Assembly (NCBI GenBank): GCA_013374015.1
Contig: BLLL01000002.1
Coordinates: 104,641 to 168,640 of the forward strand
Direction of reading: 5' to 3'
Length of the DNA stretch: 64,000 nt
Source: Candidatus Desulfovibrio kirbyi
Lineage (GTDB): Bacteria > Desulfobacterota > Desulfovibrionia > Desulfovibrionales > Desulfovibrionaceae
A program made the position numbers and the translations under genes. Of the stretch, positions 4,275-20,689 are shown one piece after another. The notes beneath the pieces were generated by a model, which saw only the letters and a program-made list of their open reading frames with translations, was not told where the DNA came from and did no database searches. Every line of letters starts with the position of its first letter. Positions within the stretch are counted from its first letter, which is position 1.

Positions 4275-5927
4275 TTGTGCGGCACGGCTGTGAAAGAACG
4301 CTGCATCATTATTCCCGCAGTCAAAAAGAACGCCGTCATACCGGACCAGTTGGTCAAAAAGCTGGCCGGCGTTACGCTTATGGAGCGCGCCATTCAAACG
4401 GCGCGTTGTGTGGCGTCTGAAGAGGATATTGTGGTCGTTACGGACAGCGAGGAAATATCGCTGATTTGCGAACGGGCCGGCGTGTGCTTTCGCTACAACA
4501 ATGCCCTGCATTTTACAAGCCTTGATATTGTGGCGGAATTGCGCGAAACGCTGTGCGAGCTTGTCCCCCTGTATGCGCATCTGCTCATACTGCGCGCGTC
4601 CTGTCCGTTGTTGACCGGGCCGGATGTGGAAGACGCCTGGAGAAAATACCGCGGCGCCGAAGCTGACGGACTTGTGACCGTAAAGAGTGTGCGGCAGCGA
4701 ATCTGGAATGTGCGCAACGGTGCGCTGGGGAGTCTGCTTGGCAGTGAGAACAGCGGTGAAGAGCGGTTTCTGGTGGAAAGCCGCGCCCTGATTATTCTGC
4801 GCTCCGCCTTGCTGCTCAACGCCGTATCCGGCAAAATTATTCCCTATTTTCTGAACGAGCGTTCCATTGAAATCCAGAGCTATCAGGACTGGTGGATTTG
4901 TGAACATCTGCTTATGCGCCGCCATATCGTCTTTGTTGTGGCGGGATACCCGGCCATCGGCATGGGGCATGTGTACCGTGCGCTTATGCTGGCGCACGAA
5001 ATCACCAACCACAAGATAACCTTTGTCTGCACCCGTCAGAGCGAGCTGGCTGTGAAAAGCATTGCTGAAAAAGATTACCGCAGTGTGCGCCAAGGGCAGG
5101 ACACTCTGACCGATACCGTGCTGCGTCTGCGTCCTGACCTTGTTGTGAACGATATCCTGAATACGGACATGCTCTATATGACGCGCCTGCGTGCCGCAGG
5201 CGTATGCTGCGTCAATTTTGAAGACGAAGGCCCGGGCGCGGGCATGGCGGATCTTGTGGTCAATGCGTTGTACGAAGGCGCGCAAAGCACACAGCGTTTG
5301 TGTTGCGGGCCGGAATATTTTTGTCTGCGTGACGAGTTTGTGAGCGCCGAGCAAAACCAGCTGCGCGACGCGGTCAAGGTTGTGCTGATCACCTTTGGCG
5401 GAACGGATTCGCGCAACTTTTCGCGGCGTGTGCTGGATGTTGTCGAGCCGGTGTGCCGGGGCATGGGCATTGCCGTTCGCCTGGTGGCAGGCCCCGGCTA
5501 TGCGCATAAAAAAGCTATGGAAGATCATCTGCGGGCATTGAAAAACGATCTTGTTGAATTTACCTGGGCAACAAACGCCATGAGCCGTATGATGGAGGGC
5601 GCTGACCTGGCCGTCTGTTCCGCCGGACGCACACTGTATGAGCTTGCCCATATGCGTGTGCCCGCCATGGTGGTGGCGCATCATGAGCGCGAGGTCAGCC
5701 ATTCTTTTGCGCGTCCGCGCAACGGTTTTGCTTTTTTGGGCATTATGGACCGTATTGATGATGTAAAACTGCGCAATGTGTTTTTGGCCATGCTGCGGCA
5801 ATCACGGCGCGCGCGGTTTTTTGAGCGGCAGGCGCGTCTTGATTTCAGAAACAACAAGGCGAAGGTTGTGGGGATGATGCTGGACTTGCTGAAGGAAAAG
5901 GAGGCTGTGGCGTGCCGAACAGCATGA
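4275..5927 (+). CDS. Fusion of a divergent sugar cytidylyltransferase domain and a PseG/SpsG-like domain
   Basis: Residues 1 to about 210 resemble NeuA/KdsB-type CMP-sugar synthetases (CIIIPAVKKNAVIPDQL, then ERAIQTARCV and EDIVVVTDSEEI), but the usual arginine-glycine-rich nucleotide loop is degenerate. Residues about 215-550 resemble PseG/SpsG, UDP-sugar hydrolase or glycosyltransferase-B proteins: the GMGHVYRALMLAHE motif carries the GxGHxxR signature, with LITFGGTDSRN and CSAGRTLYELAHM further on. A TTG at 4275 and a GTG at 4290 are both possible starts; the homology begins after the GTG. The last 16 bases overlap the next gene. The context suggests activation or transfer of the sugar made by KdnB/KdnA, or a second nonulosonate-like sugar; the true substrate is unknown. 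Confidence 0.75.
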   Translation: MCGTAVKERCIIIPAVKKNAVIPDQLVKKLAGVTLMERAIQTARCVASEEDIVVVTDSEEISLICERAGVCFRYNNALHFTSLDIVAELRETLCELVPLYAHLLILRASCPLLTGPDVEDAWRKYRGAEADGLVTVKSVRQRIWNVRNGALGSLLGSENSGEERFLVESRALIILRSALLLNAVSGKIIPYFLNERSIEIQSYQDWWICEHLLMRRHIVFVVAGYPAIGMGHVYRALMLAHEITNHKITFVCTRQSELAVKSIAEKDYRSVRQGQDTLTDTVLRLRPDLVVNDILNTDMLYMTRLRAAGVCCVNFEDEGPGAGMADLVVNALYEGAQSTQRLCCGPEYFCLRDEFVSAEQNQLRDAVKVVLITFGGTDSRNFSRRVLDVVEPVCRGMGIAVRLVAGPGYAHKKAMEDHLRALKNDLVEFTWATNAMSRMMEGADLAVCSAGRTLYELAHMRVPAMVVAHHEREVSHSFARPRNGFAFLGIMDRIDDVKLRNVFLAMLRQSRRARFFERQARLDFRNNKAKVVGMMLDLLKEKEAVACRTA

Positions 5928-6616
5928 AGGGCAAAACAGCGGCGGTGGTGCAGGCCCGGCTCGGCTCAAGCCGTCTGCGGATGAAATCCCTGTTTTGTCT
6001 GCGTGATACACCTGTCATCAACTGGGTTGTCCAGAGGCTTGCGCGGGCGGCCTGTCTTGACAGCATTGTGGTGGCCATTCCGGACACAGCCCTTGATCAG
6101 GTATTGTACACGCACCTGCGGCGTCACAACATCCCCTGTTTTGTCGGGCCGGAAGAGGACGTGCTCGCGCGCATGCTGATGGCCGCAAAATTCTGTGATG
6201 CGGGCCTTGTGGTGCGCGTGTGCGCGGATAACCCTCTGGTGTGGGGTGAGGCTGTTGATCGGCTGCTTGCCCATTACAAGGGCACTGTCTGCGATTATGC
6301 CTATAACCATATACCCAGAAACAACCGCTGGCCGGACGGCCTGGGCGCTGAGGTCGTTTCCCGCGATCTGCTGGAAGAACTGGACGCAAAGGCCAAACAA
6401 ATTTCACAGCGCGAGCACTGTTTGAACTATATCTGGGACAATGCCGGGCTTTTTCGTATTTCCACCTTTGACCCTGTGGAAGCCTGGCTTTGCCGCCCTG
6501 ATCTCAAACTGGACATGGACACGCCGGAGGATTTCAGACGCCTTGCCCTGCTGCCCCTGTCTTCTGATTCTGATGCGCGCGCCATTGTACGTGCCTTTGA
6601 TGAGGCCGCAACATAG
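5912..6616 (+). CDS. SpsF-like cytidylyltransferase-family protein
   Basis: A 234-residue nucleotidyltransferase of the SpsF/CMP-sugar synthetase group. The opening KTAAVVQARLGSSRLRMKSL is the nucleotide-binding loop (xQARxGSxRLPxK pattern), followed by VVAIPDTALDQVL, GPEEDVLARMLMAA and VVRVCADNPLV, whose aspartate is the metal ligand. The GTG start at 5912 is preferred over the ATG at 5924 because GGAGG lies at a good distance upstream. It overlaps the fusion gene by 16 bases and ends the operon. Together with the degenerate N-terminal domain of the preceding gene it may supply the functional nucleotide-activating activity. The substrate cannot be read from the sequence. Confidence 0.8.
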   Translation: MPNSMKGKTAAVVQARLGSSRLRMKSLFCLRDTPVINWVVQRLARAACLDSIVVAIPDTALDQVLYTHLRRHNIPCFVGPEEDVLARMLMAAKFCDAGLVVRVCADNPLVWGEAVDRLLAHYKGTVCDYAYNHIPRNNRWPDGLGAEVVSRDLLEELDAKAKQISQREHCLNYIWDNAGLFRISTFDPVEAWLCRPDLKLDMDTPEDFRRLALLPLSSDSDARAIVRAFDEAAT

Positions 6617-6632
6617 GGAAAATACGCTGAAT

Positions 6633-6767
6633 TTACAGCATGATCAGTTCATACCGGTCAGTACCCATGCCCAGAATCTTCATGTATTCGAGCTGGCGTA
6701 AACCGCTACGGCTTTCAATATGCTCCACGAGAGCATGTGGCTGCTCTTCAGGCAGAGCATAATCCAT
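6633..6767 (-). pseudogene. 44-codon ORF, probably a C-terminal gene remnant
   Basis: The frame reads MDYALPEEQPHALVEHIE and ends GMGTDRYELIML. The composition and the ending look like the C-terminus of a real protein, but I do not recognise the family. It lies directly downstream of the AraC-family relic on the same strand, in a stretch that otherwise consists of broken genes, so a leftover fragment is the best explanation. A genuine small protein cannot be excluded. Confidence 0.35.
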
Positions 6768-6776
6768 TATCGATCA

Positions 6777-6926
6777 TCAAGAAATCACCGTACGTAGCCT
6801 GCTCACATCCCTGCGGTGCGGCTCGCCGAATTGCCGTTTGTATTCTCTGATAAATTGCGTAGGGCTTTCATAGCCGACATAATGGGCGGCTGTGTTGACA
6901 TCATACCTGTCAACAAGCATCAACCG
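6777..6926 (-). pseudogene. C-terminal remnant of an AraC-family regulator
   Basis: The minus strand encodes RLMLVDRYDVNTAAHYVGYE followed by SPTQFIREYKRQFGEPHRRD and a stop. This is the second helix-turn-helix of AraC/XylS regulators, with the usual VGYESPSQFxREYKRxFG pattern. Only about 49 residues remain; the frame is closed just upstream, where the DUF4391 relic begins on the other strand. The two relics therefore meet at a deletion or insertion junction near 6927-6940. Confidence 0.75.
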
Positions 6927-6940
6927 TCAAAGGGGAGGCA

Positions 6941-7391
6941 TTGAAAACTGATGTTTTGTGGTGTATTGATCAGGCTATTCCTTTCCCGCTGTTGTTTGAA
7001 CTGCGCAAACAAGGACAGGCTCGGATGATAGCAGCATACAAGCGCCCCAGCAAAGCTGACGGGAACAAATGGGTTGTGGGTAGCTATTTTGCAAGCGATT
7101 GGCTAACAACTGATGCTGAAACACCGCGTGTTTCGCTGCCGGTAGCGCTGAATATGGAAGCTTTATACGCAGCCTTGCTTGCTTCCCCTATTGCCGTATC
7201 CTGCGCGACAGGGTGAGAGCCTTGCGGAGCATGTGACTCGCATGGAAAATATACAGGCGTTGGAGCGGGATATCGAACGGTGCAATGCCCGAATAAACAA
7301 AGAAAAACAGTTTAACCGCAGAATTAAACTCAACTAGAAGAAACGCGAATTGCATAACAAAATTGCTGAATTATGTTTATATGACCTATAA
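6941..7391 (+). pseudogene. DUF4391-family gene relic (truncated, frameshifted, internal stop)
   Basis: The frame from 6941 gives DVLWCIDQAIPFPLLFEL, then MIAAYKRPSKADGNKWVVGS and ALNMEALYAALL, which match the middle of DUF4391 proteins. Near 7196-7201 the frame shifts; the following frame continues as QGESLAEHVTRMENIQALE and ends in the lysine-rich coil KEKQFNRRIKLN, followed by an in-frame TAG at 7335 and a short tail to 7391. About 80 N-terminal residues are absent. DUF4391 genes commonly sit beside type III-like Mod/Res genes, exactly the neighbours here, so this is a lost component of the same defence operon. Confidence 0.75.
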
Positions 7392-7392
7392 A
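7363..7392 (+). promoter_or_regulatory. Candidate sigma70-type promoter for the defence operon
   Basis: TTGCTG at 7363-7368 and TATAAA at 7387-7392 are separated by 18 bases and lie 45 bases upstream of the OLD-family ATPase gene, inside the degraded end of the DUF4391 relic. If real, it may have arisen or been exposed after decay of the upstream gene. Prediction by eye only. Confidence 0.4.
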
Positions 7393-7437
7393 GGGATGAT
7401 TCATAATTTTTGTCATACAGCCATAAAAGGATAGGCA

Positions 7438-9829
7438 ATGAAGGTAGCTTTTCTTGACATTCAAAATTTTAGAAAACTTCAGTCTGTTCAGATAGAACTT
7501 GCAGAAAAGCAGACTGTTTTTGTTGGCGCAAATAATAGCGGCAAAACATCAGCAATACACGCTCTTGATAAATTTCTTAATCAAGCAAAGGAACACAAAG
7601 AAACAGATGATGAAGACAGTATAAATAGCAGTCTCTGGTTTGTTGTGGAAGATTTTACCCTTTCTCTATGGGACAAAATAAATAATATTGGCTCGACATG
7701 GGAATCACTTAGCGATGATGAGCCATTTCCCGCTCCAGTGCTTGATGAATGGACTGGACTTTTGCCATTTCTTGATGTCTGGCTCAAAGCTGAGGCGAAT
7801 GAATACCACTATATCTACAAGCTAATCCCCACTCTTGATTGGGGTGGTGGATTGTTGGGCATACGTCTCCGGCTTGAACCAAAAGAAAAACAGTTGGAGC
7901 AGTTGCTTGCCGACTATCGACAGACTAGGCAGCGGGCTAAAAAGAATTTGCAACGTTCTCAATCAGAGGCTGGACAAATATCGCAAAAATATCTAGAGCG
8001 AGCCTTTTGGCCTAAGGATATGAAAGATTTTTTAAGCAGGAAACTGCGAACATATTTTGCGGTTCGCTATTATATTCTTGATCCAACAAAATTCAGTTGT
8101 GGTAGTGGTGTTGTCCCTCAAGCTGTGCCAGAGTTTTCTTTTGCCCAAGATGGCGACCCTTTTGCGGGGATCATACGTGTTGATGCCATCAACGCCCAAC
8201 GTGGTTTTGAGGATGCTGATGCCGCTATCAAAAATCAGCGTCTAGCCAGCCAATTTTATGAATATTTCAAAGTCCACCTGAATCCAGAAAACGCCCCTGA
8301 TTCTCAAGACACTGACTTGCAAGCTATTTTAGCTGTATCACATTCCGAGCAATTATTTGATAAAAGTCTGGCAGCATCATTTCAGAAACCAATAAAAGAA
8401 CTTGAACATCTTGGTTATCCTGGTGTTTACAGCCCAAGCATCAAAGTTAGAACAAAGGTACAGAGAAAGGATGTTCTCAGCCATTCAGCAGCAGTGCAAT
8501 ATAGTCTTGATGAAAATGGCAGCCTTGAAACTGATTGGTATCTACCTGAAACGTATACATGGTTTAGGGTATCAAAATCTCATTTCTATGGTTTTCAGAT
8601 TGATGCGTTTTCGAGATGGGTGGATGCGCGTAAACAAAGAAATTATGGAAGAGCGAAAAAATGTAAATTCTCCTGAGCCGATACATCTTGTATTTGTTGA
8701 AGAGCCTGAAGCTCATCTCCATGCCCAGGTACAGCAAGTATTCATCCGTAAGGCTTACGATGTATTGCGTAATAACACGAATTTGGGAGATAAACCACAA
8801 TTTTCAACGCAACTGATAGTATCTACACATTCAAGTCACATTGCCCATGAATGTGATTTTGCCGAACTGCGCTATTTTCAGAGGATTCCAGCAACACCAG
8901 AGGTCAATATTCCCCATGCACATGTAGTTAACCTGTCCACAGTTTTTGCTGCTGCAAATGAGCCACAAAGGAGAGGGCAACAACCAAGCACGGAACAAGA
9001 GGCAGAGGAAGCAAAACGCCTTGCTACACAAAAATTTGTTACGCGCTATTTACAGACAACCCATTGCGATCTCTTTTTTGCGGATGCCGCAATTTTATTT
9101 GAGGGAGCAGGGGAACGTATGCTGTTGCCTCACTTTCTTAAATCTTACAAATATGGTGCATTATCCTCGTGTTATATTTCACTACTGGAAATTGGTGGTA
9201 GTCACGCTTTTCGCCTGAGAAATCTGATTGAACATCTTGGCCTGACAACGCTCATCATAACAGATATTGATTCTGTTGAGGCCAATCGTTCCGCCTGTAT
9301 GGTAGCAAAAGGCGCAAGTCAAAAGACTGCCAATAGTACGTTAAAATCATGGATACCAAACAAAGAAAGTATTGATGAGCTACTTGCACTTGATGATAAT
9401 AGTAAAGAAAAAGTTGAGAGTAATTTTGGCGCGGCTATCCGCGTTACCTATCAAACGGCAGTTAATACTTGTATTGCTTGTAATCCAGAAGAAATATTTC
9501 CTCGCACATTTGAAGACGCACTGATTGCTGAAAATATAGCATTATTTGATAATGAAAGTATTGATGACAATTTTACACAATTAATAAAAATAAAATCTAA
9601 GCTGTCAGACACACAAAATTCTTCTCTACAAAAAAAACTATTTGAATTGATTGCTAAAGATAATTCATTTAATAAGGCTGCATTCGCCCTTGAGTTGTTA
9701 TTTCATATAGACACTAATGAAATACAGATTCCAAATTATATAAAAGAAGGGCTTGCATGGCTTTGCAAGAAACTTGTCATTCCTAATACCATACAACAAG
9801 CTGTGGCAGCGGATGAGGAAGCGCAATGA
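7438..9829 (+). pseudogene. OLD-family ATPase/TOPRIM nuclease (GajA-like), split by a +1 frameshift at about 8557
   Basis: Without the frameshift this would be a protein of about 796 residues. The first frame (7438-8556) has a Walker A loop GANNSGKT at residues 30-37. One extra base at about 8557 moves the reading to the next frame, which continues as GLGYQNLISMVFRLMRF, then the Walker B/signature block FVEEPEAHLHAQ and the switch STHSSH. The C-terminal third is a TOPRIM domain with ILFEGAGE and the DxD of IITDIDS. OLD nucleases of this kind pair with UvrD-like helicases in Gabija antiphage defence. The first frame alone runs on to a stop at 8676 and would lack Walker B and TOPRIM. The site has no slippery run, so programmed frameshifting is unlikely. 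The gene is AT-rich compared with its surroundings. Confidence 0.85.
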
Positions 9830-11766
9830 GCCTCCCTGAGTCATCGCAGCTTACGCAAAAAGTCAGATGGCAAGAGGAAGCTGATACAACTATTCAACAC
9901 TGTCTTTCCCTTGACCATCCCCAAAGTTTTTTTCTGTTCGCTGGAGCCGGTTCAGGCAAAACAGGTTCTTTGGTTGCCGCATTAGACTTTGCCCGTGACA
10001 GTCTTGGCAAAAAACTTTTTCGTGATAAACGTCAGATTGGCGTGATTACATATACCAATGCTGCGGCAGATGAAATCATTCGTCGTAGCAAGCAATTCCC
10101 CTGTTTTTCCATCAGCACAATTCATAGTTTCGCGTGGCAGTTAATAAATCCATTTCAAGGGGATATCAAGACGTGGCTGACAAACAAACTGCAAAGCGAC
10201 ATCAAAGAATTGGAGCAAGGAAAAAGCCGTTCCAACGCATTTGAAATATCGCAAAAATGTGAGCGGTTGCGAAAGATTTCTATTAGTCATAGATTTACAT
10301 ATAGCCCCACTGGAGCCAACAGTGGGCGCGATTCATTAAACCATGGAGAAGTGATCAGTATTTGTGCAGATTTTTTGACACGCCCCCTGATGCAGGAAAT
10401 CTTTATCAGCCACTATCCAATACTGCTCATTGATGAAAGTCAGGATACTCGAAAAGAACTGATGGAAGTGTTTTTGGGCATACAGCATCGGTATCCTACG
10501 CAATTTATGCTCGGCCTTTTCGGTGACATGATGCAGCGTATTTATATGGACGGCAAGGAGCATCTGGCAGATTCAATCGGTGATGGTTGGGCTACTCCGG
10601 CCAAAGCAATCAATCATCGGTCGCCCAAGCGTATCATTCAGCTTATTAACGCAATTCGTAGTGAATCTGATGACCACCGGCAAAGCCCACGAGAAGACGC
10701 AGAAGAAGGAGCTGTGCGTGTATTTATCACCAATTCGACTTTTGCTGATAAGGAGGCGTTTGAGCAAAATGTCTGCCGTAAAATGGTGGATATGACGGGT
10801 GATGCTGCATGGAGTGCCCCTGATGCCAATGTGAAAATATTGACGCTGGAACACAAAATGGCATCTGTGAGACTTGGTTTTGCAGATATATATGATGCTT
10901 TTGATATTTCCAAAAAATTAAGATCACGTGCTTTTGAAAAGCTGACCTCTCTCAATCCAAAACCGCAAATTCGTGACCTTGCTTTTATTACCGAAATACT
11001 CCTGCCTCTTGTCCATGCTCACCGCATGGGAGATCGTTTCGGCGTGGCGAGTATTTTAAAGACACACTCCCCTCTTTTGCAGCCAGTTTCCGAGAATGTC
11101 CACGTTGATTCTGAACTCACACGTCAAGTCAAAGGAGCCAAACTTGCAAGCGAAGCATTGTTTAGGCTGTGGACAGATAATGCTGACCCCACGCTCAAAA
11201 GTATTGTTTCCTCTCTGTTAGACACCAACTTGCTGGATGTGCCTGACCGTCTAAAGCATGGGGCCGTTACAGCTAATGAAAGGGAAATGACAGGCACTTC
11301 GCCTGAGATTCATTTGGTTGAGGAAGAGGGGACTGATGGTATCGACTCAGAGGAGCGCAACAAACGCCAAATGGCATGGGCTGCGTTCGTTAATGTGCCT
11401 TTTTCTCAACTTATATTGTTTCACCAGTATATCAAAGGAGAAAGCCTGTTTGATACTCACCAAGGGGTTAAGGGCTTGGAATTCCCCCGTGTGATGGTCA
11501 TTCTGGACGACGAGGCTGCTGGAGGGCATTTATTCAGCTATGACAAACTATTTGGTGCAAAAAGCCTGACTAAAATTGACAAAGACAATATCAGAAGCAA
11601 TAAAGACAACTCACTGACACGCACAAGGCGACTTTTTTATGTGATTTGCAGCCGCGCACAGGAAAGCCTTGCGATTGTCATTTATTCCGTAAACCCAAGC
11701 CAAATACGCAGCACTTTGCTTGAAAAACATATTTTCGCTGAAGATGAGATCATTCTCAGCCAATAA
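9826..11766 (+). CDS. UvrD/Rep-like superfamily 1 helicase (GajB-like partner)
   Basis: A 646-residue SF1 helicase whose ATG overlaps the stop of the OLD-family gene (ATGA). Visible motifs in order: I, FAGAGSGKTGSL; Ia, GVITYTNAAADEI; ISTIHSFAWQL; II, LLIDESQDT; III, FGDMMQRIYMDG; IV, INHRSPKRI; V, THQGVKGLEFPRVMVILDDE; VI, RTRRLFYVICSRAQ. All are intact. The overlap implies translational coupling, so the frameshift upstream may lower its expression. It is longer than the roughly 500-residue GajB of the described Gabija systems; the family relation is clear, the exact system assignment is inference. Confidence 0.85.
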   Translation: MSLPESSQLTQKVRWQEEADTTIQHCLSLDHPQSFFLFAGAGSGKTGSLVAALDFARDSLGKKLFRDKRQIGVITYTNAAADEIIRRSKQFPCFSISTIHSFAWQLINPFQGDIKTWLTNKLQSDIKELEQGKSRSNAFEISQKCERLRKISISHRFTYSPTGANSGRDSLNHGEVISICADFLTRPLMQEIFISHYPILLIDESQDTRKELMEVFLGIQHRYPTQFMLGLFGDMMQRIYMDGKEHLADSIGDGWATPAKAINHRSPKRIIQLINAIRSESDDHRQSPREDAEEGAVRVFITNSTFADKEAFEQNVCRKMVDMTGDAAWSAPDANVKILTLEHKMASVRLGFADIYDAFDISKKLRSRAFEKLTSLNPKPQIRDLAFITEILLPLVHAHRMGDRFGVASILKTHSPLLQPVSENVHVDSELTRQVKGAKLASEALFRLWTDNADPTLKSIVSSLLDTNLLDVPDRLKHGAVTANEREMTGTSPEIHLVEEEGTDGIDSEERNKRQMAWAAFVNVPFSQLILFHQYIKGESLFDTHQGVKGLEFPRVMVILDDEAAGGHLFSYDKLFGAKSLTKIDKDNIRSNKDNSLTRTRRLFYVICSRAQESLAIVIYSVNPSQIRSTLLEKHIFAEDEIILSQ

Positions 11767-11797
11767 AGTATTTGACATTAAGAAAGGCACAAGCATC

Positions 11798-13768
11798 ATG
11801 GACAAACTCAAAATGCACTCCCCGGACATGACACAGGAAAATATCACCCGTATCCGCGAACTTTTCCCCAACTGTGTCACCGAGGCCCATGATGAAAAGG
11901 GCGAAGTCAGGTTTGCGGTGGATTTTGATCTGCTGCGGCAGGAACTTTCCGATTCTCTGGTGGAAGGCCAGCAGGAACGCTATCGCCTTGATTGGCCCGG
12001 TAAGCGTCAGGCTTTACTCACTGCCAATGCTCCCATAGCCAAGACCTTGCGCCCCTGCAGGGAAGAAAGCGTTGATTTTGATACAACGAAAAATTTGTAT
12101 ATTGAGGGCGACAATCTGGATGCTCTGAAGCTCTTGCAGGAAAGCTATCTTGGCAGGGTCAAGATGATTTATATTGATCCGCCGTACAATACCGGCAATG
12201 ATTTTATCTATAAAGATGATTTTTCGGAAAATACGGATGAATATTTTGTGCGGTCAAATCAAAAGGATGAAGAAGGCAACAGACTTTTTGCAAATACAGA
12301 AAGCAACGGGCGTTTTCATTCTGATTGGTTGAGTATGATGTATGGTCGTTTGAAACTTGCAAGGACATTATTGCGTGACGATGGGGTTATTTTTATCAGT
12401 ATTGATGATAATGAAGTTGCGCAGTTGAGGAAGATTTGCGAAGAGGTGTTTGGGAGTGGAAATTTTGTTAATCAAATTGCTTGGGTAAATAACATTACGG
12501 GTAGGCAAATATCAGGATTGGGTGCGGCAAAGACTTACGAATATATTTTGATATATGCTAAAAATATTTCAAATCTATCAGTCTTTACTATATCCATAAA
12601 TTTTGCAAAATCTGCAATGCCGGATGCTTATAAGGGGTTTAATAAGGATATACGGACGGATGAACGCGGTGAATATGCCGTTGGGGATACTTTGTACAAC
12701 CACAATCGTATATTTAATGAGGAAACACGACCGAACCTTGTTTTTTCCATATATTACAATCCAGATACCGGAGCCATTGAACCTGACAATATTGGTGTTA
12801 CCAAACAGGATTTTGTAGAATTGCTGCCACATAAAAATGGCGATGGCACTCATAAATACCATGCGTGGAGATGGTCGCGGCAAAAAGTGGTCAATGAAAA
12901 TTACGACCTAATCGTATTGCCAACAAATTCTGGTGGCTATGAAATCTATACCAAGATCCGTGAATTCAATAAGACAATCCTAAAAGACATTATTACTAAC
13001 ATATCGAATGGCGATACTGAATTCAAACAACTGTTTGAAGGCAAAAAGTGTTTTGACTATCCCAAGTCATCTGACTTGTTAAAAACACTCTTTGGTGCTG
13101 TTTCAATTTCAGCCGACAGTACCATACTCGACTTCTTCTCCGGTTCCGCCACCACAGCCCACGCCGTCATGCAGCTTAACGCCGAAGACGGCGGCAATCG
13201 TCAGTTCATCATGGTGCAGTTGCCTGAAGTTTGCGCTGCTGGCAGCGAAGCAGCTAAAGCCGGATATGAAAACATCTGCGAAATCGGCAAGGAACGCATC
13301 CGCCGTGCCGGCAAAAAAATCAAGGCAGCACGTCCCCTCACCACACAAAACTTGGACATCGGCTTTCGCGTCCTGAAAGTTGATTCCTCCTGCATGGAAG
13401 ACGTGTACTACACACCGGACGCCACCAGCCAAAAACAATTGAGCCTGTTTACGGACAACATCAAGAAGGATCGCCGCGACAAGCCGGAAGACCTGCTCTT
13501 TCAGGTACTCATTAACTGGGGCGTGGAACTGCACCTGCCCATCACACCCAAAACCATTCAGGGCAAAAAAGTCTTTTTCGTGGATGAAAACAGCCTTGTC
13601 GCCTGCTTCGACTCCGGCATAAATGATGCTTTCATCAAGGAACTTGTCAAGTTCCAGCCCTTGCGTGTTGTCTTTCGTGATGGCGGTTTTGCTTCAGATG
13701 ATGCCCGCATCAACGCCGAACAGATATTTAAGCAACTATCGCCGGAAACCGAGGTAAAGGTGCTGTGA
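11798..13768 (+). CDS. Type III-like site-specific DNA methyltransferase (Mod)
   Basis: A 656-residue beta-class amino-methyltransferase. The catalytic motif IV is DPPYNTG at residues 127-133, preceded by [15 protein letters not shown], and the AdoMet motif [15 protein letters not shown], lies near residues 445-460; this order is normal for Mod proteins. The region between them (about residues 225-430) is the target-recognition domain and is visibly AT-richer than the rest, which suggests exchange of specificity. The start at 11798 is preferred because an upstream AAAGG run fits and the longer frame reaches back into the helicase gene. The next gene's GTG overlaps its stop. It should methylate the site cut by the downstream Res and protect the host. 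Confidence 0.88.
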
Positions 13769-13875
13769 AGCGCGGCAAACTTTGCAAAAATGCGGACAAG
13801 TTGTCGTCCGTCGAGCAGGCTTTTCTGGAAAGCATCAAACAGGCGCAAAAAAAGCTGGAAGGGAAAAATTCATGA
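13765..13875 (+). CDS. 36-codon gene overlapping both mod and res
   Basis: A GTG at 13765 overlaps the mod stop (GTGA), and the stop at 13873-13875 overlaps the ATG of res (ATGA). The predicted peptide begins [17 protein letters not shown] and continues with a basic, helix-prone tail [17 protein letters not shown]. Overlaps on both sides strongly suggest a translated, coupled cistron rather than chance. No family is recognised. It may be a small accessory subunit linking Mod and Res or a coupling leader; function is unknown. Confidence 0.6.
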
Positions 13876-16800
13876 AGCTCAAATTCAAAATACAGCCTTT
13901 TCAGGCGGAAGCTGTATCTTCTGTGGTTGATTGTTTTGCCGGGCAGCAATTTTCTTCCGGTCTGTCCTACCGTATTGACCCCGGCAAGGAGCGCAAGCCG
14001 GCTCGTCCTGTGCAGGTAAATTTATCCCTTCAGGAGCCGGAAGAATCTCCCGGCTGGAAAAATGCCGATTTGACTATCCCTGAAGAAGCCCTGCTGGACA
14101 ATATTCACGCAGTACAGCGCAGGCAAAACCTCTTTTTATCGGATACATTATCCGAAAGCGCAGGTTGCCGATGCAATTTGGACGTGGAGATGGAAACCGG
14201 CACGGGCAAAACTTATTGTTATATTAAAACTATTTTTGAATTACATGAACGCTACGGCTGGGGAAAATACATCGTTGTTGTGCCGAGTATTGCCATCCGC
14301 GAAGGCGTCTATAAATCCCTGCAAATTACAGCCGACCATTTTGCTGAAACCTACCACAAAAAAGCCCGCTTTTTCATCTACAACTCCAAAAGCCTGCACC
14401 AGTTGGAGAGTTTTTCTTCCGACAGCGGCGTCAATGTCATGGTTATCAATATTCAGGCGTTCAACGCCACAGGTGCTGACAACCGCCGTATTTATGAAGA
14501 ACTGGACGATTTTCAGTCGCGCAAGCCCATTGACGTTATCAGCGCCAATAGCCCCATACTCATTCTGGATGAGCCGCAGAAAATGGAAGGCGCGAAAACC
14601 CTTGAGGCATTGAAAAAATTCAAACCGCTGATGATATTGCGCTACTCTGCCACACACAGAACACAGCACAACAAAATCCATCGTCTGGACGCTGTTGACG
14701 CCTACAATCAAAAGCTGGTTAAAAAAATCGCCGTGCGTGGCATCAGCGTCAAAGGCATAGCGGGAACCGCTCCCTATCTGTTTCTGGATTCCATAAAAAT
14801 TTCCAGCCAGGCTCCAGTAGCCCGTATGGAAATAGAAATGCGGCAGAAAAGCGGTGCCATAGTGCATAAACTCAAACGCCTTTGTAAGGGCGATGACCTG
14901 TTTGAACATTCCGAGAAACTGAACCAGTACAAAGGCTATGTCATTACAGAAATTGACTCGCGTTCCAATACCGTGGAATTTGCCAATGGCGTAACCATCA
15001 GCAACGTGGAAGCTATGGATGACGGCGCAGAAGACGCGCTGCGGCGCATACAAATTCGTGAAACCATACAATCCCATCTGGAGAAAGAACAAACACTCCA
15101 TGCAAGGGGCATCAAAACGCTTTCTCTGTTTTTTATTGATGAAGTCAAAAAATATCGGGACTATGACCAGAGCGACGAAAAAGGCGAATATGCCCATATC
15201 TTTGAAGAAGAATACACCCAGCTTGTCCAGAAATATACGGCCAACCTTGGGTCAGATAAAGAAGCACTCAAGGCATACTGGCAGGGCATTGATGTCAGCC
15301 GTACCCACAATGGCTATTTTTCCGTAGACAAGCACAAACGACTTGTTGATCCTTTAGTGAAGAAGACAGGCGAAGAAAAAGGGCTTTCTGATGACGTGTC
15401 AGCCTATAAACTTATTCTCAAAGACAAGGAACGCCTGCTTTCCTTTGAGGAGCCGGTACGTTTTATTTTTTCACATTCCGCCTTGCGTGAAGGCTGGGAT
15501 AACCCAAATGTCTTTGGCATGTGCATGTTGAAGCACAGTGACAGCAATATTTCACGCCGTCAGGAAGTGGGGCGCGGTTTGCGCCTGTGCGTCAATCAAA
15601 ACGGCGAGCGTATTGACACTCCGGCCATAGTGCATGACGTGAATGTGCTGACCGTTGTTACCGGCGAGAGCTACACGGATTTTGTCTCGAACCTGCAAAA
15701 AGAAATCAGCGAGGCACTGTCTGCGCGTCCACGCAAGGCTGATGCGACCTACTTTACGGGTAAGACTTTGCGGACGGAAACGGGTGATGTCCAGGTTACT
15801 CCCATCATGGCAAACCAGATTTATCGCTACCTTGTCAAAAATGACTACACAGATAACTTCGATGCCATTACAGCGGACTACACCACAGCCAGAGAGCAGG
15901 GAACGCTTGCAGCTCTACCACCGGAACTTGCTCCATATGCGGATCAAATTCTTACTCTGATTGACAATGTGTACAGCGAATCGCAGCTTCCGTTGCCGGA
16001 AAATGAGCGTGAGCAACAAATCAATCATTTGAACAAAAATTTTGATAAAAAGGAATTTCAGAACCTTTGGGACAAAATCAACCACAAGGCCGTGTACAGC
16101 GTTCATTTTGATTCGGCGGAACTGGTTAAAAACTGCATTACGGCTATTGATAAAGAACTTAAAGTTGCTCCGTTGCTCTACACGGTTGACTCCGGCACTC
16201 AAAATCAAAGCGTGACCGTTGAGGAATTGCGGAAAGGCGCGACATTCCGGCTGGAAAACACGACTACAGACACTCTTGAAGGCTCTGCACACTCACAGGT
16301 GAGCTATGATCTCGTCGGCAAACTTGCGGAGAACACACAGTTGACGCGAGCGACCGTAGGCAAAATTCTTTGCAGCATTACGCCGGATGTCTTTGACAAA
16401 TTTAAACAAAACCCTGAACAGTTCATCACCGAGGCTACACGCCTGATTCGGGAGCAAAAGGCGACAATTATCATTGAACGCCTGAGTTATGATACCACTG
16501 CCGAAAAATACGATTCCGGCATCTTCACCTCTCCGCCGCAAAAAATTGCCAAGAGCGCCGTCAAAGAAAAGCTGAAAAGGCATATCTACGACTACGCCGT
16601 GACGCAATCCGGCGTGGAGCGTGAATTTGTGGAAAAGCTGGATGTCAGCGATGAGGTGGTTGTGTACGCCAAACTGCCCGGCGGATTCTTTATCCCCACG
16701 CCCGTGGGCGACTATAACCCGGACTGGGCAATCGCCTTCAAGGAGGGTAAGGTTAAACACGTCTACTTTGTGGCTGAAACCAAGGGTTCCATGTCTACAA

Positions 16801-16940
16801 TGCAACTAAAGGCTATTGAAAAGAACAAAATCGAATGCGCCAGAAGGTTTTTTGAAAAACTGAATACTGCGGCGCGGGATAAAGTTAAATACGATGTTGT
16901 GACCACCTACGGGAAGCTGATGGAAATTGTAACGCTCTGA
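13872..16940 (+). CDS. Type III-like restriction enzyme subunit (Res), DEAD/DEAH helicase plus nuclease
   Basis: A 1022-residue SF2 translocase with a C-terminal nuclease. Visible motifs: [12 protein letters not shown] near residue 105; [10 protein letters not shown] near 231; [44 protein letters not shown] near 560. The C-terminal PD-(D/E)xK site is NPDWAI near residue 948 and VAETKGS near 968. The ATG at 13872 is chosen because it overlaps the small gene's stop and fits the usual N-terminus of the family; an earlier in-frame start would extend into that gene. No break is seen, so Mod/Res may still be an active restriction system. Confidence 0.88.
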
Positions 16941-16951
16941 GGAGAAAGAAC

Positions 16952-17527
16952 ATGAAAATAACTGTGCTTGAAATAATTGCGGGAATTGTGGGACTGCTTT
17001 CAGGCTTTCAATCCTTGGCTCACGCTGCTGACGCCAATGCGGGAGGGAAAAAAGTGTTAATCCTTTATTATTCATGGAGCGGCAACACCCGTGAACTTGC
17101 AAAGCAGATACAGGCGCAGACCGGCGGCGATCTTGTTGAACTGGAAACAGTGACTCCCTATCCCACTGCTTACAACCAAACAGTGGAACAGGCCAAAAAA
17201 GAACTGGAAGCCAACCACTTGCCGCCATTGAAAACGCGCGTGGATAATCTTGCTTCCTATGACGTTATTTTCCTCGGTTCGCCAAACTGGTGGTACACGC
17301 TGGCCGGACCTGTCAGAACCTTTTTGTCACAAAACAATCTGGCCGGAAAAACGGTTATCCCGTTTATGACGCACGGCGGCGGGGGGTTTGCCAACAGCCT
17401 TAAGGATATTAAGGCATTTTGCCCCAACGCGACTATTTTGGAAGGATTGGCCATACTTGGAACCAGAGCCAAAAATGCGCAAGGCGATGTGGCGCGCTGG
17501 CTGCATACATTGGGAATGGCAAAGTAA
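16952..17527 (+). CDS. Flavodoxin-like protein with signal peptide
   Basis: The 191-residue protein starts with a hydrophobic leader of about 25 residues ending in SLAHA, consistent with Sec export and cleavage. The mature part is a flavodoxin: ILYYSWSGNTRELAKQI is the FMN phosphate loop, VIFLGSPNWWYTLAGPVRTF contains the aromatic flavin-stacking segment, and PFMTHGGGGFANSL is the third flavin loop. A periplasmic flavodoxin could serve in electron transfer or quinone protection. It starts 11 bases after res with a GAGGAG ribosome-binding site, so it may be read with the defence operon, although a shared job is not evident. Confidence 0.82.
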   Translation: MKITVLEIIAGIVGLLSGFQSLAHAADANAGGKKVLILYYSWSGNTRELAKQIQAQTGGDLVELETVTPYPTAYNQTVEQAKKELEANHLPPLKTRVDNLASYDVIFLGSPNWWYTLAGPVRTFLSQNNLAGKTVIPFMTHGGGGFANSLKDIKAFCPNATILEGLAILGTRAKNAQGDVARWLHTLGMAK

Positions 17528-17667
17528 ACATAAACATGCTGCCCGCATTTGACTCCGGCTAAATTATCGGTGATCGCTACCCCGCAGAACAGCAAAGACA
17601 GATTCAACAAAACTGACGAAGCCGGATATGCCGTGAATCGTGTGTGACAGTCTTTCTTACAGTACCG

Positions 17668-17685
17668 GAGAGACGATGGTCTCTC
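17668..17685 (+). other. Hairpin downstream of the flavodoxin gene
   Basis: A perfect 7-bp stem (GAGAGAC / GTCTCTC) with a 4-base loop. A short CTTTTCT stretch follows a few bases later, so it may act as a weak terminator of the preceding operon. Confidence 0.35.
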
Positions 17686-17730
17686 TAGAGCTTTTCTAAA
17701 AATTCATTCGATTGCCTTGGCGATACGGCT

Positions 17731-17754
17731 TGCCCCGCTTGCCATAACGGGGCA
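17731..17754 (+). other. Hairpin in the uvrA leader
   Basis: A 7-bp GC-rich stem (TGCCCCG / CGGGGCA) with a 10-base loop ends 19 bases before the uvrA start and is followed by a T-run (TATTTTTT). It could be a terminator for upstream transcription or a leader structure; the rest of the 246-base gap shows no gene. Confidence 0.4.
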
Positions 17755-17773
17755 TGACTGCTATTTTTTCCTG

Positions 17774-20689
17774 ATGAATACGCCGAAAAAAACCATACAT
17801 ATTGAAGGGGCGCGTCAGCACAACCTCAAAAATGTCAGTCTGGACATTCCGCGCGACGAGCTGGTTGTGGTGTGCGGTCCTTCCGGCTCCGGCAAGTCCA
17901 CACTTGCCTTTGACATCGTGTACGCCGAAGGCCAGCGCCGCTATGTGGAATCGCTTTCCGCGTACGCGCGGCAGTTTCTGCCGAAGATGGACAAGCCGGA
18001 CGTGGAAAAAATCGAGGGACTTTCGCCGGCCATCTCCCTGGAGCAGCAGTCCGCCTCGCGCAACCCGCGCTCCACCGTGGGCACGGTCACGGAACTGCAC
18101 GACTTTTTGCGCGTGTTCTTCGCGCGACTAGGGCGCATGCACTGCCCGAAATGCGGCGACCCCATAGAGGCATGCGCTGCGGACGAAATCATCGCCGACA
18201 TCCTTTCTTTGCCCAACGACGCGAAATTCATGACGCTTGCCCCGCTCATCGAACTGCAAAAAGGCACGCACGCGGACAGGCTGAAGAAACTCAAAGCCGA
18301 AGGCTTTGCCCGCGTGCGCGTCAACGGGGAGTTTTACACACTGGAAGACGCGCCAACGCTTGACAAAAACAAAAAACACACAATTGACCTTGTAGTGGAC
18401 CGTCTCGTCAACAAGGAGGGCATACGCGGCAGGCTGGCGGATTCCGTGGAACTTGCCCTGCGCTACGGACAGGGACGCCTCATCGTGCACCTGCCGGACG
18501 CAAGAAAGGACGTCGTCCACTCCACAACGTCGGTCTGCGCGCGCTGCCGTATCTCCCTGCCCGCCCTGACTCCGCAGCTTTTTTCCTTCAACGGGCCGAA
18601 GGGGGCGTGCCCGCGTTGCGTGGGTCTCGGCAGCGTGGACTATTTTGAGCCGCGTCTCGTCGCGCCGAATCGCGGGCTTGCGCTCGACAGGGGGGCGCTG
18701 CTGCCTTGGGCGGACAAAAAAGTTTTTGAGCGCTATGCCGTAGCCCTCGCCGCCTTGGGCAAACGCTTTGCCTTTGATCTGTCCTCGCCGCTGGATTCGT
18801 TTTCGGACAATGCCCTGCGCGCCCTGTTTTACGGAGAGGACGAACACGGCGCTCCGGCTGCCGGCTCCCAAGGTCTGCGCCGTAACTGGATGGGCGGTAA
18901 CGTGGCCCTTGGCGCTGTGGGGGACTATCAGAGCGCGCATTTTGTCGAGACGCAGAAAATCGAAAACAACATGACAAAGATTGCCAGGCGCTGGCCGGGC
19001 GTGGTGCCCCTGCTGGAAGAAGGCATGCGCTACGGCTCCTCCTGGCGCGAAGAACTAGCGCGCTTTCGCCAGTCCACAAACTGCCCGGACTGCAAGAGCG
19101 CGCGCCTGAAGCCGGAGGCGCTCTGCGTGCGCGTGGACGACAAGAACATTGCGGAATTCTGCGCGCTTTCCGCGGAACGTGCGCTCGCTTGGTTGAAGGG
19201 ATGCACCTTTGCCGGACGGCATAGCCTGATCGCCGAACCTCTGACCAAGGAACTGATCCACAAACTCTCTTTCATATGCGGCGTTGGGCTGGAATATATA
19301 TCTCTCGACCGCTCCATGATTACTCTTTCCGGCGGCGAGGCCCAGCGCATACGCCTTGCCTCCCAACTCGGCTCCGGCCTTGTGGGGGTGACATACGTGC
19401 TGGACGAGCCGTCCGTCGGCCTGCACCCGCGCGACAACGCGCGCCTGCTGGGTACCCTGCGCTCCCTTCAGGCGCGTGGCAACACCGTGCTTGTCGTGGA
19501 GCATGACGAGGCCACCATCCGCGCCGCGGACACGGTCATTGAGCTTGGGCCAGGCTCAGGATCCCAGGGCGGCGAAATCATGTTTGCCGGCTCCGTGCCC
19601 GATCTGCTGGGCAAAGCCGACACCCTCACCGCCCGCTATTTGCGCGGGGATGAGACAATCCCCCTGCCGGAGGCGCGGCGCAATCCTACGGGCAGCCTTG
19701 TCCTGCACGATGTCGCCACCCACAACCTGCGCGGAATTACCTGCGCAATCCCGCTGGGCGCGCTTGTGTGCGTGACGGGCGTTTCCGGATCGGGCAAAAG
19801 TTCGCTTGTGGTGGACACGCTTTACAAACATCTGGCGCTTGCCTTGGGAATGCGTGTTGATCAGCCGGGGAGCATAGGCAATCTCACCTATACGGGCGCG
19901 GCATTGCCCATAGAGCGCGTCATCGCCATAGACCAGACCCCCATCGGGCGCACGCCCCGCTCAAACCCGGCCACCTACACAAAAGTTTTTGATGAAATAC
20001 GCGCCATCTACGCCATGACGCCGGACGCGAAGCGGCGCGGCTACACGGCCTCAAGATTCAGCTTCAACGTGCGCGGTGGACGGTGCGAAGCCTGCGCCGG
20101 CGACGGGCAGATTCGCGTGGAAATGCACTTTCTGCCGGATGTGCACGTCACATGCGACGTGTGCAAGGGCATGCGCTACAACTACGAAACCCTGGAGGTG
20201 CGCTACAAGGGACTGAACATCGCCGAAACCCTTGATCTCACCGTCCGGCAGGCGTGCGGCCTTTTTGAAAACTACCCTCCCCTCGCGCGGCGGCTTGCCG
20301 TGCTTGAAGATGTCGGGCTGGAATACCTGCGCCTCGGACAGCCGGCTACAATGCTTTCCGGCGGAGAGGCCCAGCGCATCAAAATATCGCGCGAACTCGG
20401 TAAAAAATCGCTGCCGAACAGCCTGTACGTGCTGGACGAACCCACAACAGGGCTGCACATGCACGAAACAGGCAAACTCATCAAGGTGCTGCATTCCCTA
20501 GTGGACAAGGGCGCCACAGTGGTTGTCATTGAGCACAATACCGACATGATACTGGCGGCGGATTACGTGCTGGACATGGGCCCGGGTGGCGGAGAAAACG
20601 GGGGGCTTGTCATTGCCGAAGGCACGCCGGAGGCCATCGCGGCGAATCCGGACTCCGCGACGGGGCGCTTTCTGGCACAGGGAAAGTGA
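17774..20689 (+). CDS. uvrA: Excinuclease ABC subunit A
   Basis: UvrA recognises bulky DNA lesions in nucleotide excision repair and loads UvrB. The 971-residue protein has two ABC ATPase modules: Walker A loops CGPSGSGKST and TGVSGSGKSS, and signatures LSGGEAQRIRLAS and LSGGEAQRIKISR. Cysteine pairs in CARCRISL...CPRC and CEACAGDG...CDVC are the zinc-binding sites. The ATG at 17774 opens MNTPKKTIHIEGARQHNLKN, the normal start; a longer in-frame extension has no homology. It is intact and of usual length. Confidence 0.97.
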   Translation: MNTPKKTIHIEGARQHNLKNVSLDIPRDELVVVCGPSGSGKSTLAFDIVYAEGQRRYVESLSAYARQFLPKMDKPDVEKIEGLSPAISLEQQSASRNPRSTVGTVTELHDFLRVFFARLGRMHCPKCGDPIEACAADEIIADILSLPNDAKFMTLAPLIELQKGTHADRLKKLKAEGFARVRVNGEFYTLEDAPTLDKNKKHTIDLVVDRLVNKEGIRGRLADSVELALRYGQGRLIVHLPDARKDVVHSTTSVCARCRISLPALTPQLFSFNGPKGACPRCVGLGSVDYFEPRLVAPNRGLALDRGALLPWADKKVFERYAVALAALGKRFAFDLSSPLDSFSDNALRALFYGEDEHGAPAAGSQGLRRNWMGGNVALGAVGDYQSAHFVETQKIENNMTKIARRWPGVVPLLEEGMRYGSSWREELARFRQSTNCPDCKSARLKPEALCVRVDDKNIAEFCALSAERALAWLKGCTFAGRHSLIAEPLTKELIHKLSFICGVGLEYISLDRSMITLSGGEAQRIRLASQLGSGLVGVTYVLDEPSVGLHPRDNARLLGTLRSLQARGNTVLVVEHDEATIRAADTVIELGPGSGSQGGEIMFAGSVPDLLGKADTLTARYLRGDETIPLPEARRNPTGSLVLHDVATHNLRGITCAIPLGALVCVTGVSGSGKSSLVVDTLYKHLALALGMRVDQPGSIGNLTYTGAALPIERVIAIDQTPIGRTPRSNPATYTKVFDEIRAIYAMTPDAKRRGYTASRFSFNVRGGRCEACAGDGQIRVEMHFLPDVHVTCDVCKGMRYNYETLEVRYKGLNIAETLDLTVRQACGLFENYPPLARRLAVLEDVGLEYLRLGQPATMLSGGEAQRIKISRELGKKSLPNSLYVLDEPTTGLHMHETGKLIKVLHSLVDKGATVVVIEHNTDMILAADYVLDMGPGGGENGGLVIAEGTPEAIAANPDSATGRFLAQGK

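Follow-up and report, generated by a model that had tools for sequence, protein, structure and literature searches.

The Gabija system of Bacillus cereus (VD045) forms a 4:4 complex of GajA and GajB that cuts phage DNA (PMC10781630), and in Pseudomonas aeruginosa the target of Gabija is DNA whose ends carry phage proteins that exclude RecBCD (preprint PMC12407980). That one defence system can be embedded in the operon of another is also established. DarTG2 lies between hsdS and hsdR of a type I system, Septu is found within Hma and further Hma-embedded candidates have been described (PMC12255303, PMC12988326), while PrrC is embedded in the type IC locus EcoprrI, in a paper that also notes accessory genes beside restriction systems (PMC12707154). 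Nuclease effectors embedded in BREX loci are reported in a BREX survey (PMC12839542).

The locus described here lies in a 64,000-nucleotide stretch of Candidatus Desulfovibrio kirbyi (contig BLLL01000002.1, positions 104,641–168,640), which we call the window. In it, a Gabija pair (gajA, encoding an OLD-family ATPase/TOPRIM nuclease, and gajB, encoding a UvrD-like helicase) sits between a relic of a DUF4391 gene and the mod gene of a type III-like restriction operon. Embedding in defence operons is already known; what we present is the case of Gabija embedded in a type III locus, an arrangement of which our literature searches, which missed most subscription papers, found no description. The pair is likely to be swappable defence cargo in the first of two slots of the operon, which would act as a separate nuclease co-expressed with Mod–Res and not as a subunit of the same machine; its gajA is split and this copy is predicted to be inactive.

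As in known Gabija systems, both subunits are recognized by PADLOC and Pfam, the order is gajA–gajB and the catalytic motifs are in the window; the pair differs in lying inside a type III operon, in its frameshift-split gajA and in belonging to a long subfamily. The restriction part resembles type III systems in its Mod with a DPPY motif, its Res with ResIII helicase and RE_endonuc domains and the adjacency of the two genes. It differs in that the operon has four genes (SNF2/HKD helicase–DUF4391–Mod–Res) and two slots for cargo; the window copy is without the helicase and has a broken DUF4391. Like DarTG2 between hsdS and hsdR and Septu in Hma, it is a case of a defence system lodged within the operon of a second one, although here the host is of type III and the cargo is Gabija. 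PrrC in EcoprrI is likewise a second-line effector inside a restriction operon, but it cleaves tRNA and responds to inhibition of EcoPrrI, whereas the window has a DNA nuclease pair. In this locus a well-studied nuclease defence is lodged inside a type III operon with two recurrent cargo slots. If these slots are general, they would offer a direct route to new defence genes (for each of two slot families, Pfam matched neither of the two members tested and PADLOC did not match the single member run against it) and natural pairs for testing cooperation between restriction and a Gabija-like nuclease.

Organization of the locus and the split gajA gene

ORF calls, Pfam and PADLOC place the DUF4391 relic, gajA (as two open reading frames, ORFs), gajB, mod, a 36-codon ORF and res on the plus strand in this order (Table 1), which bears out the gene order, with overlaps or small gaps, given in the first-pass annotation. 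Overlaps of 4 bp join gajA to gajB (9826–9829), mod to the 36-codon ORF (13765–13768) and the latter to res (13872–13875), and gajB is separated from mod by 31 bp, measured to an in-frame ATG at 11798. The proteins are named GajA, GajB, MTase_III and REase_III by PADLOC (E-values from 5.6e-103 to 0), in agreement with the Pfam families AAA_15, OLD-like_TOPRIM, UvrD-helicase, N6_N4_Mtase, ResIII and RE_endonuc; NCBIfam gave weak matches only, with the exception of Res (PRK15483, E 1.3e-114, below its cut-off). The nuclease/helicase pair, earlier called Gabija-like, has both Gabija subunits, with gajB adjacent to gajA. The genes for Mod and for Res, which combines a helicase domain with a C-terminal endonuclease domain, stand side by side as in type III systems. 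gajB, mod and res are open frames with their motifs retained.

What had been described as one OLD gene is two overlapping ORFs. Blastp alignments of the 5' piece with intact GajA relatives start at residue 1 and stop at residues 360–373 in seven of the eight listed matches and at residue 399 in the other one, while those of the 3' piece start at its residue 50 or 53 (about position 8549) in all eight. Homology changes frame at about 8549–8556, between the half with Walker A and the half with Walker B and TOPRIM. GajA is therefore not encoded as a single open reading frame; its ATPase and TOPRIM domains (PF13175 and PF20469, both above cut-off) are present, spread over the two pieces. The break point is open in 80 GajA relatives of 726–824 amino acids (aa), a set picked by length (650–850 aa) and hence biased to intact ones. 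The break is read from one assembly, and a real loss, an assembly error and phase variation all fit it. Since gajA is split by a frameshift, this Gabija copy is predicted to be inactive.

The remainder of the host operon is also incomplete. The DUF4391 relic corresponds to residues 73–219 of an intact 224 aa relative and consists of two pieces with a broken frame and a missing N-terminus (PF14335 at 6941–7213, E 1.5e-16, and in another frame at 7215–7334, E 2.4e-6, just under the curated cut-off). A tblastn search of the window with the helicase of L145 found no SNF2/HKD helicase. Given the loss of the helicase and the breaks in DUF4391 and gajA, what remains is probably a working-looking Mod–Res with a silent Gabija.

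Table 1. Genes and gene remnants of the locus, with window positions and the evidence for each.
Feature	Position	Strand	Evidence
DUF4391 relic	6926..7373	+	Pfam PF14335 in two frames; tblastn with intact relative from L145
gajA 5' piece, AAA_15/ABC ATPase, Walker A GANNSGKT	7438..8676	+	PADLOC GajA PDLC00093, E 5.6e-103; PF13175; blastp; motif
gajA 3' piece, Walker B, STHS, OLD-like TOPRIM	8402..9829	+	PADLOC GajA, E 1.1e-151; PF20469, E 8.5e-17; blastp; motifs
gajB, UvrD-like helicase, 646 aa, motifs present	9826..11766	+	PADLOC GajB PDLC00111, E 2.9e-215; PF00580
mod, type III-like DNA methyltransferase, 656 aa from ATG	11798..13768 (ORF opens 11720)	+	MTase_III, E 3.3e-222; PF01555; DPPY
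36-codon ORF, 4-bp overlap with mod and with res	13765..13875	+	ORF only; no relative found
res, type III restriction subunit, 1022 aa from ATG	13872..16940 (ORF opens 13782)	+	REase_III, E 0, 1092.6 bits; PF04851, PF19778; motifs

Two further features of the first-pass annotation did not survive comparison with relatives. The nuclease and helicase had been called larger than described GajA and GajB. The lengths of the best-matching PADLOC models, 736 and 752 aa for GajA and 625 and 632 aa for GajB, place the pair in a long-form Gabija subfamily that is already in the PADLOC library. The 36-codon ORF had been counted as part of the operon, and it was rejected as a conserved operon gene because tblastn over 262 loci returned only the window's own copy at E < 1 and other mod–res junctions differ: among ten relatives, res lies within about 30 bp of mod in eight, DUF1016 cargo intervenes in L150 and a longer unrelated spacer in L149.

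Two cargo slots in the Mod–Res operon of relatives

In relatives, the full operon runs SNF2/HKD helicase, DUF4391, slot 1, Mod, slot 2, Res. It is seen in the family and phylum of the window, on plasmids of Escherichia coli, Acinetobacter, Mycolicibacterium, Leuconostoc and Enterococcus and on viral contigs, and the one operon helicase tested is PADLOC 'HKD+Snf2'. Slot 1 is the interval between DUF4391 and Mod and slot 2 that between Mod and Res, each counted as occupied if it holds more than 300 bp of extra DNA. The count covers loci other than the window with detectable DUF4391, Mod and Res and leaves out L044, L244 and incomplete loci; sets are complete in 44 of the 81 loci of the main sample (window included) and in 15 of the 17 viral loci. 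Plasmids are represented by 22 of the 184 records with Mod, chosen for spread from 60 listed.

Slot 1 is filled in 11, slot 2 in 16 and at least one of them in 21 of the 43 loci of the main sample; the corresponding numbers for the 15 viral loci are four, six and nine. Taken together, slot 1 is used in 15/58, slot 2 in 22/58 and either in 30/58. Collapsing res at an identity of at least 97% leaves 52 loci (13, 21 and 27 for slot 1, slot 2 and either), and collapsing the 43 loci at 85% Mod identity leaves 41 (10, 15 and 19). The DUF4391/mod junction is a recurrent insertion slot and its use in the window is one case of a general habit. To this extent the earlier suggestion that Gabija and Mod–Res are not two neighbours by chance is supported, helped by an OLD nuclease that uses the same slot elsewhere; its second half, that the genes form one composite system, is unsupported. 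A GajA–GajB pair is absent from the slots of every other DUF4391–Mod–Res locus examined.

The cargo varies. Slot 1 of L156, which is from the same genus and the most window-like of the relatives with intact Mod–Res (Mod 62–65% and Res 72% identical), holds a D12 methyltransferase and an AAA_15 ATPase. Elsewhere slot 1 contains a GmrSD-like HEC-05 (L165), AAA_13/PDC-S06 (L169), KilA-N/PDC-S22 (L233) or, on a viral contig, IetA and IetS together with RhuM (PDC-S05) in slot 2 (L281, 3596–9928). Two near-identical viral contigs (L272 and L273, in the latter at 4940–7957) have in slot 1 a lone ORF, UvrD-like and at most 1005 aa long, that has no GajA with it and only weakly resembles GajB (PADLOC E 2e-8). 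A family of about 300 aa recurs in slot 1 of L147 (10796–11695), L157 (11175–12068) and L164 (8274–9200) with 34–78% identity; it has no Pfam match in L157 and L164 and no PADLOC match in L157, and is a candidate new defence gene. Two relatives have Mod fragments that are nearer to the window's but are broken loci themselves: L151 (79% identical over residues 25–213) starts at a contig edge, and L235 (83% identical over residues 26–212) has a slot 1 of 428 bp with a 106 aa ORF and DUF1016 in slot 2.

The contents of slot 2, for which loci without a detected DUF4391 are also listed, are RhuM or PDC-S05 (L147, L166, L169, L237, L241 and L281), DUF1016 (L150, L162, L228 and L235), AlbA_2 (L159, L230 and L231), Bro-N/PDC-S13 (L161), AAA with DUF4276 (L158, L164, L170 and L175, identified as HEC-01 wherever PADLOC was run), Septu PtuA and PtuB (L171), Fic/SoFic (L225 and L154, the latter in the window's own genome) and a PLD-like protein (L276). 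Four viral contigs share a slot 2 family of about 224 aa (L275, 6422–7099; L278, 9298–9969; L279, 9290–9964; L285, 9298–9969) with no Pfam match in L275 and L279 and no PADLOC match in L279. Further cargo ORFs lie in L163, L173 (no Pfam match), L226, L229, L238, L239, L243 and L280. The slots thus hold known systems (IetAS, Septu and SoFic) and candidate ones (HEC-01, HEC-05 and several PDC families). Several of these families are PADLOC 'PDC' or 'HEC' candidates from searches for embedded genes, so the slots may be partly known to the authors of those candidates.

Gabija and Mod–Res are found mostly apart

The surroundings of Gabija were surveyed in 101 loci of GajB relatives (97 distinct at 97% gajB identity), made up of 80 GTDB contigs (the best 80 of 392, with 41–45% identity), seven loci from the window's family, three from its phylum and 11 viral contigs. 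Mod together with Res adjoins Gabija in one of them and in none of the other 100, absences that are soft as many loci stop at a contig edge. Two further loci (L028 and L053) have a Mod-like match without Res. Within the 288 genomes of the family, GajB is found in eight (E 1e-50) and Mod in 22 (E 1e-60), the window's own genome counted. One other member of the family, G276, carries both on one contig, at 1.91 and 2.58 Mb, about 0.67 Mb apart.

A scan of viral contigs with query A2 gave 12 loci, of which 11 have GajB over most of its length and none has Mod–Res; scans of viral contigs with P0003 and P0007 found no relative. Distant GajB proteins occur in 77 plasmid records (34–44% identity in the 20 listed) and a relative of 43% identity in one phage record. 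An order-level search of 348 genomes with P0007 returned no closer GajB outside the window's genome.

Independence of the two blocks in relatives had been set beforehand as the test of a composite restriction/abortive system. The blocks proved mostly separate, with L044 and a possible second contig with Gabija and Res as exceptions. With Mod–Res beside only one of the 101 Gabija loci, Mod–Res relatives that carry other cargo or none and the distant pair in G276, the proposal of a composite system is not upheld; the mostly separate occurrence of the blocks argues for embedded defence cargo.

Discussion

The pair has the features of embedded cargo: GajA–GajB form a second system between genes of the host operon, the DUF4391 relic and Mod, and the same slot holds varied cargo in relatives. 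We also count for this reading the lower GC of the gajA pieces (0.413 and 0.389) relative to res (0.475) and the window (0.529); gajB and mod have values of 0.447 and 0.446. As for the original function, we infer that the methylation of host sites would fall to Mod and the cutting of unmodified phage DNA to Res, while an intact GajA–GajB would cut phage DNA with ends kept from RecBCD by phage proteins. Gabija could in this way serve as a second line against phages that block restriction or outpace it. Type III enzymes produce DNA ends and can themselves be countered by anti-restriction, so the two systems may be complementary on one putative transcript. Sharing such a transcript with mod and res, the cargo would move with the operon and come under its regulation. 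Promoter- and terminator-like sites in the window are not commoner than in shuffled sequence.

Several observations weigh against reading the pair as independent cargo and leave room for a preferred or cooperating association. The one exception among the 101 loci, L044 from a gammaproteobacterial metagenome-assembled genome (MAG), has a helicase-domain ORF followed by Mod, Res, GajA and GajB, an order that differs from that of the window. An OLD nuclease also uses slot 1 of other hosts: an OLD ATPase/TOPRIM protein with DUF2130 occupies it on Enterobacter and Citrobacter plasmids (L182 and L216), which count as one case as the proteins are the same, and an Aeromonas plasmid (L175, with HEC-01 in slot 2) has an OLD gene 80% identical to theirs upstream of Mod. 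Besides the softness of absences at contig edges, the 101 loci exclude the closest GajB relatives, which are metagenomic (58–65% identity, P0007–P0017). Transposon ends or long repeats flanking the insert, which would reveal the means of cargo movement, were not found, only short scattered repeats.

A further such point comes from contig sizes. P0007, the GajB relative nearest to the window's (65%), and P0252, one of the close Res relatives (73%), are from the same source and both report a longest contig of 20,310 bases. The chance expectation for this match is about 0.006 for the top 14 GajB and top 11 Res entries, a cut chosen after the match was seen, and 0.42 over the full lists. As a positive control, GajB and Mod of the window itself have 168,640 in common, as expected; the Res list does not contain the window's protein, so the control is valid for GajB–Mod only, and Mod against Res gave no shared size though many should share contigs. 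The match hints at a second locus with Gabija and Res, and we regard it as a lead. Another size shared by GajB and Mod, 7833, besides the window's 168,640, was not used since it is at about chance level (0.4–0.6 expected).

Some of these observations also favour Gabija and the type III system forming one cooperating composite, in which Gabija would be switched on by Res-made ends or by anti-restriction proteins acting against Res, with selection holding the two together. L044, the OLD nuclease in the same slot on the Enterobacter and Citrobacter plasmids and upstream of Mod on the Aeromonas plasmid, and the possible second contig all fit it, as do the reported licensing of Gabija by DNA end-binding proteins (PMC12407980) and its activation by Ocr, cited from others in the introduction of PMC12255303. 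Nevertheless, we consider such a composite unlikely given the single adjacency in 101 Gabija loci, the slots without any other GajA–GajB pair and the distance of about 0.67 Mb in G276. That gajA is functional in spite of its two frames, through a programmed frameshift, the joining of its two fragments or an error of sequencing in this assembly, would agree with the survival of all ATPase and TOPRIM motifs sought over the two pieces, with the overlap of their ORFs (8402–8676) and with the open state of gajB, mod and res. This is rather improbable when set against the relatives that read through the break point, length-picked as they are, and against the frame-broken DUF4391 and missing helicase next door, which fit decay. 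Decay might in turn be the whole explanation, with two defence relics joined by accident within a defence island and no functional meaning to the arrangement. The DUF4391 relic, the missing helicase and the split gajA are as expected from this; yet mod and res keep full-length open frames and their motifs, a 3,027-base contig (which may be from the same species) carries a Res fragment of 97% identity over 769 aa and the slots are in use in more than half of the other loci, which makes it improbable.

Returning to the Gabija pair as swappable cargo, a broader and decidedly tentative picture is that SNF2–DUF4391–Mod–Res is a two-slot chassis, with whole systems in slot 1 (Gabija, IetAS, OLD with DUF2130, GmrSD-like) and sensors or effectors in slot 2 (RhuM, DUF1016, SoFic, Septu, HEC-01). 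In and around Desulfovibrio there might then be a lasting Gabija–type III lineage in which ends made by restriction or guarded by phage feed Gabija, so that evading restriction would license a second nuclease.

Flanking genes and other loci of the genome

Just upstream of the DUF4391 relic, a 48 aa ORF on the minus strand (6777–6923) resembles the end of an AraC-type regulator (HTH_18, E 8.8e-6, below cut-off), and we read this remnant as another sign of decay here. On the other side, a flavodoxin-like gene starts 11 bp after res and is followed by a uvrA-like gene with a GC of 0.611 (together 16952–20689); the foreign segment seems to end at about these genes. The window's genome has a second, distant Mod–Res pair with a SoFic-type Fic protein in between (L154, 3422–9519; G000:C4:20001-38000). 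At a third locus (L155, 2243–12523; G000:C3:82001-100000), a 961 aa UvrD–PDDEXK protein, a 663 aa HATPase-domain protein, a Mod-like methyltransferase and an 884 aa ResIII + TnsA-like ORF stand in a row.

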